From IMG/VR virus record IMGVR_UViG_3300039191_000362, positions 1-38,324 of that record: DNA of 38,324 nucleotides, one strand, 5' to 3'. The number at the start of each line of letters is the position of its first letter. Position 1 is the first letter of the stretch. The notes below the pieces were generated by a model. The model searched no databases, had not been told where the DNA came from, and was given only the letters and a program-made list of their open reading frames with translations. Position numbers and translations under genes: made by a program. Shown piece by piece: positions 22,421-35,305 of the stretch. The stretch is from a virus.

Positions 22421-22963
22421 ATGGCAAACATACAGTCATTTGAAGAAATATATGTGGAACTGTGCGAGCATATCGCTATTAACATGCCACACATTAACCA
22501 TCAAGACCTATGGCATGAACAGATAGGATTTCTTGATGAAGAACATCCCTGGGAAGGTCCTGCTATTTTTTATGAGTTTAGAGGAGTAGATGTAGATGAG
22601 CTGGGCGACCTTGCACAGCATGTAGATCTACAAATAGATATTTATCTGTACTATGAAACTTTTCTAGACACCAACCATGGAAGCTACAACCAAAGCGATG
22701 CTCTTGCCTATTTAAAGGATCTATCAAATTTGAATAAGTATTTACACGGCTATGCTGGTACATCTATAGATGATATAGGAAGGATAGGTTTTTCTAGGGT
22801 GCAAACTGGTGGTTCTGGAAATTTATACCGCTCTACATTTGTGGGAAGAACAAGGGATCATAGCGCGGTTAAAGAATTTGATACTGCCATACCTAATGAA
22901 GTAGATGTAGAATCTGGATTAATTCCACACGTTGCTCCATCAAGTAATAAATTTAAAATCTAG
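22421..22963 (+). CDS. Mu gp37-like tail terminator/joining protein
   Basis: 180 residues. Features: ELCEHIAINMPHINHQDLWH, PAIFYEFRGVDVDE, HVDLQIDIYLYYET, RVQTGGSGNLYRSTFVGRTR. An alternating helix-strand pattern with a long amphipathic strand pair is as in Mu gp37-type proteins that follow gpG-like genes. It is the last gene of the rightward head operon and overlaps the convergent gene by four bases. Equivalence is positional plus pattern. Confidence 0.5.
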   Translation: MANIQSFEEIYVELCEHIAINMPHINHQDLWHEQIGFLDEEHPWEGPAIFYEFRGVDVDELGDLAQHVDLQIDIYLYYETFLDTNHGSYNQSDALAYLKDLSNLNKYLHGYAGTSIDDIGRIGFSRVQTGGSGNLYRSTFVGRTRDHSAVKEFDTAIPNEVDVESGLIPHVAPSSNKFKI

Positions 22964-23461: not shown

Positions 23462-23680
23462 TTAATTGTGAATATAAGATTTAACTTGCTCTTTAGTAGG
23501 TAATAGCTCCTCTAGCATTTCTAGTGCGGTATTTGTATGACATTGATCAAAGCAGTCAGGGTCTTGATGTCTAACAAGACCTATAAGCGCATGCATGCGA
23601 TCTACCACGTTTGCATCTGGATCAAATGGAGCATAATCACTGTTTGTAATTATATTACCTTTTTTATCTAACTGAATCAT
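23462..23680 (-). CDS. Hypothetical early protein
   Basis: 72 residues, acidic, with two Cys and two His residues in DPDCFDQCHTNTALEMLEEL. The start overlaps the end of the antirepressor-like frame by four bases (ATGA). This coupling suggests that the antirepressor frame was once translated to its end. Family unknown. Confidence 0.5.
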   Translation of the reverse strand: MIQLDKKGNIITNSDYAPFDPDANVVDRMHALIGLVRHQDPDCFDQCHTNTALEMLEELLPTKEQVKSYIHN

Positions 23681-24411
23681 AAAGACATTCTTAATTGATT
23701 TATATTGAATAATCCAGCACTCGAGAGCAATAGATTAAGACCTACCTCATTAATAAACCAAGATGTTTGATTGCCAAATAGATTTAATTTAACAGCGTTA
23801 GAAGTCTTAATATTAAGTCGTTTTGAGATCTTACTATTGTTAGAATTAATCGTTAGGGATTTTCTTACATCAGTTAATGAAAATAGTTTAATCCCTTCTA
23901 GAGTGACACGCTTTACCTTACTGCCGTTAACTAGTTGCGATTCCTAAGGCATATCACGAGCATCTATTACATGGTTTTCATCGATTAATAATATGAGATT
24001 TGTTACATTTCCCTGAGTAATTATTGCCTTATCCATGCGAGCGTGAAAAACTTCACGATATACATTAAAAACGGCTTTTACTTTACGAGCGATCAAGTAT
24101 TCCATAACTTCTACGGTAATAAATACATGGACTTTTACTCCATTTTGTAACTCATTGAACTATACGACCTTTCCATTTTGGAAAGCCTGATACTCGTTTC
24201 CTTCAATAAACTCTTTCTGAAGTACTCGCATGGCATCTTTCTTCTGGCTATAAGCCAAAGGCCAGACGTGATCCAATTCTATTGGAAAGGCTTCACCGCT
24301 ATTTTTAAGATCAAATACTTTTGTAAAATACTGGCGCACCTCGTTTGAAGTTGCCTTTTTATTTAGTTGCTGGTTTTGAGTCGCAGCTTGACTTTGTTTG
24401 TTGACAGTCAT
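23677..24411 (-). pseudogene. Antirepressor-like gene with two in-frame TAG codons
   Basis: The frame from the ATG at 24411 to the TGA at 23679-23677 has 245 codons with no frameshift but with TAG at codon 84 (24162-24160) and codon 156 (23946-23944). Reading through, the first part contains FPIELDHVWPLAYSQKKDAM and FIEGNEYQ, the middle VFITVEVMEYLIARKVKAVF, NVYREVFHAR, and the end TSWFINEVGLNLLLSSAG. These are the features of phage antirepressors (Rha/Ant-type: sequences with a YLIARK and a YREVFH element, and a final INEVGL motif). Other genes here stop at TAG, so general recoding is unlikely. Either two nonsense mutations have inactivated the gene or the 83-residue N-terminal part is functional alone. 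Its start codon lies in a 14-bp inverted repeat. Confidence 0.65.
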
Positions 24412-24424
24412 ATCAATAAATTAA

Positions 24425-24516
24425 AAATTAAAAAAGGCCCAGAGCTGACTGTCAACAAATTTTGCGATGCAAAGGAAGTCCGCACATTCTCACGAGTAGT
24501 GCGCTCTGGGTTTTTT
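24425..24516 (-). ncRNA. Structured RNA upstream of the antirepressor, c4-like antisense candidate
   Basis: On the minus strand CCCAGAGC (24510-24503) pairs with GCTCTGGG (24445-24438), enclosing small hairpins (GCAC...GTGC, TTTGC-ATC-GCAAA), and is followed by CCUUUUUUAAUUUUU, an intrinsic terminator. Just before the closing strand is TTTGTTGACAGTCA (24459-24446), the perfect 14-nt complement of the antirepressor mRNA start region (24410-24397), including two bases of its ATG. An RNA of the same transcript that pairs with the ribosome entry of an antirepressor is the c4 scheme of phages P1/P7. Function is inferred. Confidence 0.65.
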
Positions 24517-24638
24517 AGTGATTTCATTTTGAAATGCATCTAGGTTAATTTATTAACAGTCGATGTAAATATATAAAATTATTTCCATATCTGTTTTTTT
24601 TTAAATTAAAATGACTAAAAAGGTGTCTTTAATCTTTT

Positions 24639-34513: not shown

Positions 34514-35305
34514 ATGGATACTATAGGAGAGCGTATAAAGTCAGTGCTGGTAAGGCATTCAGTAACGCAAAAAAAATTTGCTGAAGACCTAGGAATTACA
34601 GAAGTAGCGGTAAGCAATTACATGAATAAAGATCGTGTACCCAATACTGAGGTTTTGATAAAAATTAAACAACTGTTTAATGATGTGGATCTTAATTGGC
34701 TATTAATTGGAGTAGAAACGTTAAAAGAATCACAAATTTTAAATAATATTTTTCGAGAACCTGATTTAATCTATAATAATGGGCTGCCTAAAGTTATATC
34801 TACAGACCATCAGGGAGAAGAAAATATATTATTGGTACCACATTATGCGCAAGCTGGTTACTTAGATGGATATGGCGATCCTGAGTTTTTGGAAAGCTTA
34901 CCAAGTTATAGATTACCTAAGATTGATAATGGTACTTTCAGGATTTTTGAGGTTAAAGGACACTCTATGATTCCAACGCTACATGATGGATCACTTGCGG
35001 TAGGTGAATGGTGTGAAAATTTAGAAGACATTAAAGATGACCAGATATATATTATAGTCACAAAAGTTGACGGTATAGTTATCAAGCGTGTGCTTAATAG
35101 AGTCAATAAATACAATAACTTATATTTAAAATCAGATAACCGGTCAGAGTATCCAGCTTACACCATCACTCCTGATCAAGTTCTTGAAATATGGAAATTA
35201 AAGACCGCTTTTATATATAACTTCACTAATCCTGCGGACATGTACGATCGTTTAACAGATCTGGAGGCAGAAATGATGCAGATTAAACAATCACTAAACA
35301 AATAG
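34514..35305 (+). CDS. CI/LexA-type prophage repressor (XRE HTH plus S24 peptidase)
   Basis: 263 residues. N-terminal XRE HTH (VTQKKFAEDLGITEVAVSNY, about 17-36). C-terminal S24 domain with Ser151 in VKGHSMIPTLHDGSL and Lys191 in DGIVIKRVLNR as the autoproteolysis dyad, and an Ala114-Gly115 cleavage pair in HYAQAGYLDG. These features imply RecA-stimulated self-cleavage, unlike the classical Mu repressor; so the prophage should be SOS-inducible. It is divergent from the early operon. A perfect operator dyad is within its own coding part. Confidence 0.9.
   Translation: MDTIGERIKSVLVRHSVTQKKFAEDLGITEVAVSNYMNKDRVPNTEVLIKIKQLFNDVDLNWLLIGVETLKESQILNNIFREPDLIYNNGLPKVISTDHQGEENILLVPHYAQAGYLDGYGDPEFLESLPSYRLPKIDNGTFRIFEVKGHSMIPTLHDGSLAVGEWCENLEDIKDDQIYIIVTKVDGIVIKRVLNRVNKYNNLYLKSDNRSEYPAYTITPDQVLEIWKLKTAFIYNFTNPADMYDRLTDLEAEMMQIKQSLNK
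34664..34681. promoter_or_regulatory. Operator O3 inside the repressor gene
   Basis: ATTAAACA-AC-TGTTTAAT, a perfect 8-bp dyad and the best copy of the operator, located in codons 50-56 of the repressor gene (KIKQLFND). It may give autoregulation by road-block or DNA looping with O1/O2. Confidence 0.6.

Follow-up and report, generated by a model that had tools for sequence, protein, structure and literature searches.

The DNA analysed here, which we call the window, is a stretch of 38,324 nucleotides of viral DNA (IMG/VR IMGVR_UViG_3300039191_000362, positions 1 to 38,324). Its minus strand carries an antirepressor-like gene (23671-24411) preceded by a leader in which a promoter-like sequence, an upstream target copy (a5), a 73-nt RNA core enclosing an antisense segment (a3), a U-run and a target at the gene start (t) follow one another in this order. 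The promoter-like -7 element, TATATTTA (24566-24573), is of the Bacteroidota type TAnnTTTG with a deviating last base, and we saw no clear -33 box at it. Just behind it lies a5, GACTGTTAATAAATT (24547-24561). The c4-like core (24438-24510) is made up of a closing stem, two hairpins and the antisense segment. The 5' arm of the closing stem (b5), CCCAGAGC, occupies 24503-24510 and the 3' arm (b3), GCTCTGGG, 24438-24445, while the computed fold places the hairpins GCGCAC...GTGCG at 24481-24504 and TTTGC-ATC-GCAAA at 24461-24473. The 14-nt segment a3, TTTGTTGACAGTCA (24446-24459), stands directly before the 3' stem arm, and a terminator-like U-rich tail, CCTTTTTTAATTTTT (24423-24437), comes directly after the stem. 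The target, TGACTGTCAACAAA (24397-24410), runs from the second base of the ATG into codon 5 and covers two of the three bases of the start codon (24411-24409, with the A at 24411). An earlier note on this DNA had described a stem-closed minus-strand RNA ending in a U-run, a perfect 14-nt complement over part of the ATG, and the adjacency of that complement to the stem; each of these is present at the coordinates given above. The a5 element is a third related copy, lying beyond the stretch which that note covered (24397-24516).

The single segment a3 is complementary to both a5 and t. Its duplex with t is a perfect 14-bp complement with a computed energy of -20.4 kcal/mol, and its duplex with a5 has 15 bp, two of them G-U, at -17.5 kcal/mol. 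When the 73-nt core is folded in isolation, the minimum-energy structure contains the closing stem and the two main hairpins and leaves a3 unpaired (mean unpaired probability 0.62). RNAfold on the 24397-24516 stretch prefers a 14-bp a3:t hairpin. Such features could arise as a chance inverted repeat beside the ordinary terminator of an upstream operon: the T-rich leader makes some repeats likely, and the core fold alone is unremarkable (z = -1.6, with 29 of 500 shuffles equally good). Because automatic selection of crossing helices went wrong at some loci, among them the window, we adopted a joint score of the closing stem, a5:a3 and a3:t, in which the same internal segment has to be complementary to an upstream site and to the gene start. 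The window scores 85; none of 2000 dinucleotide shuffles reaches this value (maximum 73), and the 52 other gene starts of the window score at most 69. Together with the recurrence of the layout in relatives and in phage P1, described below, this makes a chance origin scarcely credible.

The earlier note had placed an antirepressor gene downstream of the RNA, a description that stands for the family of the gene and for the predicted structure of its N-terminal domain; the frame itself is probably inactivated. It is collinear with intact relatives, and with the closest of them (locus L003, 71% identical in the first 83 residues) to the end and with no frameshift, but contains two in-frame TAG codons (24162-24160 and 23946-23944), which the earlier note had missed. 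Because of these the gene is probably inactive in this phage. They probably reflect a decaying gene or a mixed population, and the switch may here be guarding a dead gene. We ruled out the reading of TAG as an amino acid: 9 of the window's 42 long frames end in TAG, and a search for tRNA genes found none. Pfam and PHROGs searches with the window's own gene returned no usable match. In six relatives (L008, L041, L043, L044, L049 and L089) a KilAC/ANT antirepressor domain lies C-terminal to the shared N-terminal domain, so that the antirepressor assignment comes through the gene's family and not from the window's own frame. The predicted structure of the N-terminal domain (mean pLDDT 80) is closest to MSV199 and to annotated antirepressor proteins in a viral structure library, and a Foldseek search against the PDB returned nothing. 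On the plus strand, at 34514-35305, the window encodes a CI-type repressor with HTH and S24 peptidase domains (Pfam HTH_3, 4.7e-8; Peptidase_S24, 4.6e-9), which is the likely partner of the antirepressor.

L003 is the one close viral relative of the gene; two human-gut phage records and about 60 viral loci from a profile search extend the family. Since a protein-profile search of the phylum matched 1 of 395 genomes, the domain is rare in reference genomes, and it occurs mainly in viral contigs. Searches with the neighbouring genes found only the L003 phage and one further fragment (L101), which is related to the window phage by the gene at 22421-22963 and in which we saw no antirepressor at the corresponding place. 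Scanning with exact 20-mers for near-identical leaders yielded six matches, all in unrelated contexts resembling protein-coding sequence.

The leaders of the relatives mostly have no sequence in common with the window, and many of them repeat its topology, a5-b5-a3-b3. The joint score is at least 70 in 20 of 61 related Bacteroidota phage leaders, versus 0.75% of shuffles; most of the 61 fall below this strict threshold, and some of the automatic assignments are plainly wrong. The layout stands upstream of antirepressor genes in homologous loci, where the earlier note had suggested looking for it. In the relatives a TAnnTTTG element usually lies about 120-255 nt before the gene, mostly at 180-220 nt and just before a5, and four of them (L009, L033, L047 and L071) resemble the window in having a target that begins at or beside the ATG's second base. 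When a3 was fixed without using the gene start, its complement was still found there (Fisher p = 5e-7, 29 loci). In L003, the nearest relative, only about 7 bp of a3:t are kept. A covariance model built from 17 relatives (R1) found other loci, did not match the window, and returned nothing from eight whole genomes.

Some of these loci show further elements. Many relatives, for example L032, L040, L081, L086 and L088, have a conserved GGGC-TTTTTTTATG-CCC hairpin between a5 and b5, and a hairpin with a TGTAATGG loop inside the core. At L085, a c4-like element (positions 473-554; R1, 53.9 bits) precedes a Bro-N antirepressor gene (ATG at 604), which belongs to an antirepressor family other than the window's and is followed by a second antirepressor gene with its own leader. 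A weak R1 match downstream of the antirepressor gene at L028 (3994-4066, E 0.01) may be another c4-like element of that prophage.

Three loci (L033, L037 and L047) could be aligned, and we counted covarying pairs among them. In a5:a3, five pairs are changed on both sides, with 100% paired and none broken; in a3:t, four pairs are changed on both sides, with 93% paired; and in the closing stem, two. The segments a5, a3 and t therefore change together, one antisense tracking two targets, and the covariation with the gene start that the earlier note had proposed to look for is found here as well as in the chromosomal c4-2 loci described below. The same comparisons bear on the possibility that a phage repressor binds the repeats as DNA operators near the promoter, with the stem serving as an intrinsic terminator only. 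Repeats close to a promoter would suit such sites in a phage that encodes a CI-type repressor, and the P1 c4 promoter also carries a C1 operator, according to the P1 record. Yet the middle copy is always inverted and within the stem loop, and the repeat sequences change together from locus to locus. Scoring G-U and A-C alike, we counted 25 G-U against 7 A-C mismatches in a5:a3. Such an excess is what an RNA of the gene's strand would give, and not what a protein site on DNA would. The corresponding counts for a3:t (13 G-U, 13 A-C) carry no RNA-strand bias. Overall, we consider operator sites a very improbable explanation of the repeats.

The earlier note had likened the locus to the c4 system of phages P1 and P7, and a point-by-point check against the annotated P1 record bears the likeness out, down to the upstream target copy, which that note lacked. 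In P1, putative targets a1 and b1 are followed by the C4 RNA (77 nt), targets a2 and b2, icd and ant. The a1 and a2 sequences are identical (TTGACAG), their complement lies inside C4, and C4 also contains a complement of b2. The P1 c4 fold has a long closing stem, two hairpins and an unpaired antisense stretch, the same shape as the computed fold of the window's core, though that fold is equalled by many shuffles. Like P1/P7 C4, the window has a promoter-like element, an upstream target, a predicted three-stem RNA of about 75 nt, a downstream target and an antirepressor-like gene in identical order on one strand; its antisense covers the translation start region, its two targets are copies of each other, and a5 is the counterpart of a1/b1. 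The two also differ. The window has one continuous antisense of 14-15 nt where P1 C4 has two short segments, a' and b', its target overlaps the start codon, its U-run comes right after the closing stem, no icd intervenes, and its core measures 73 nt against 77 nt for P1 c4.

The comparison with Rfam, also proposed by the earlier note, went against family membership. P1, our positive control, matched Rfam C4 (RF01695) at 68.8 bits and also the upstream-target model c4-a1b1 (RF03163), whereas a scan of the whole window with Rfam returned nothing, with no match to C4, c4-a1b1 or c4-2 (RF02944). At permissive settings the leader drew nothing but chance matches, microRNAs among them, which respond to the a3:t hairpin. 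As no covariance model recognises it and its antisense is uninterrupted, we class the window's RNA as a variant resembling c4, outside both RF01695 and RF02944, that has diverged too far for present RNA models to pick it up. Two of the relatives, L044 (53.9 bits) and L066 (43.3 bits), score above the c4-2 threshold. We also noted that the P1 a1/b1 leader (L096, 2231-2312) resembles Rfam isrK at 35.1 bits, under the cut-off of 50.

Taken together, our analysis of these sequences suggests, with a probability of roughly 0.8, that the window's leader is a c4-type antisense switch. By this reading, a single promoter would give a transcript containing a5, the three-stem RNA presenting a3, and the antirepressor gene with t, and termination or cleavage would limit most transcripts to the 73-nt core. 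The U-run may generate the 3' end of this RNA. While attached, a5 may hold a3, and a cut before the core would free it; in P1, RNase P makes such a cut. The a3 of the core would then pair with the start region of the antirepressor mRNA and block its translation, both in the lysogen and on the mRNA of an incoming sibling phage, and with antirepressor translation blocked the CI-type repressor would remain active.

Antisense control of ant is also found in phage P22, where sar is read from the DNA strand opposite to that of ant, unlike in the window, where the RNA and the gene share one strand. The sar asRNA pairs with ant mRNA, an antisense control of ant translation that keeps lysogeny (PMC12197685). 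A different comparison is with attenuators that combine an intrinsic terminator with an antiterminator helix, since these share with the window a GC stem, a U-run and a competing upstream segment. In the window, however, the segment in the loop is a match to the gene start, with a target copy upstream, and attenuation needs neither. The leader might nonetheless act only in cis and need no small RNA working in trans: as a pseudoknot or an attenuator, it would control termination and translation of the downstream gene through competition between a5:a3, a3:t and the closing stem of a single transcript. The helices cross (a5-b5-a3-b3) and could coexist as a pseudoknot or compete, folding of the whole leader favours a3:t in cis, and the U-run behind the window's closing stem has a counterpart in an enrichment of T at this place in the tested relatives (0.50 versus 0.32), among which a clear U-run is not universal. 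The c4 RNAs of P1 and P7 share this layout and act in trans (PMC5320573; PMC12197685), and locus-specific antisense sequences suit phage-specific immunity. We thus regard action in cis only as unlikely, with some share of cis action remaining compatible with the sequence.

A c4-type switch in the window would carry the immunity logic of P1 and P7 into Bacteroidota phages, including gut and flavobacterial ones, in which the control of lysogeny is poorly known. Most RNAs of this kind escape current Rfam models, their sequences diverging and their layout being kept, and the layout offers a direct way to read the phage-specific immunity codes, an antisense and two targets, from genomes. The earlier note had taken this logic in a Mu-like flavobacterial phage to be new. 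The kind is not new to Bacteroidota, as 9 of 395 genomes of this phylum have c4-2 (RF02944, C4 clan CL00128) above its cut-off, often in several copies each. A 2017 paper, reportedly, is probably the one that described c4-2. Most of the 20 c4-2 loci that we inspected have an upstream and downstream repeat of 9-21 nt, an internal antisense and a T-rich tail. These chromosomal loci share the layout with locus-specific sequences, and the complement changes along with the gene start. The window resembles c4-2, whose core is about 78 nt, in its flanking target repeats, internal antisense and T-rich tail, and differs from it in the missing model match and in its internal hairpins and sequences. The name c4-2 also appears in a list of Rfam structure updates (PMC11701678).

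A more far-reaching proposal, which is possible but doubtful, is that these leaders form a widespread c4-like class in Bacteroidota, in which an intrinsic terminator makes the RNA 3' end. The antisense would also be contested by a5, in a helix that crosses the terminator stem, and a single transcript would in this way sense target that is free. In such a class, an occupied antisense would alter termination and processing, and the leader would be a self-adjusting immunity switch with fast-changing, phage-specific codes.

The gene behind most chromosomal copies of c4-2 encodes about 77 aa, belongs to no Pfam family and is not an antirepressor. A further match (L114, G149:C21), sub-threshold for c4-2 at 36 bits, precedes a gene with a Shine-Dalgarno-like AAGGAG; its closing stem, AGCTCTGAGA/TCTCAGAGCT, resembles that of the window in sequence. 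In Bacteroidota chromosomes (L105-L113 and L115-L124), c4-2 is present in several copies per genome, which stand mostly before paralogous 77-aa genes and make up a multi-copy antisense-coded family. Many of these copies come with a matching set of their own, made up of a repeat upstream, an antisense and a repeat at the gene start.
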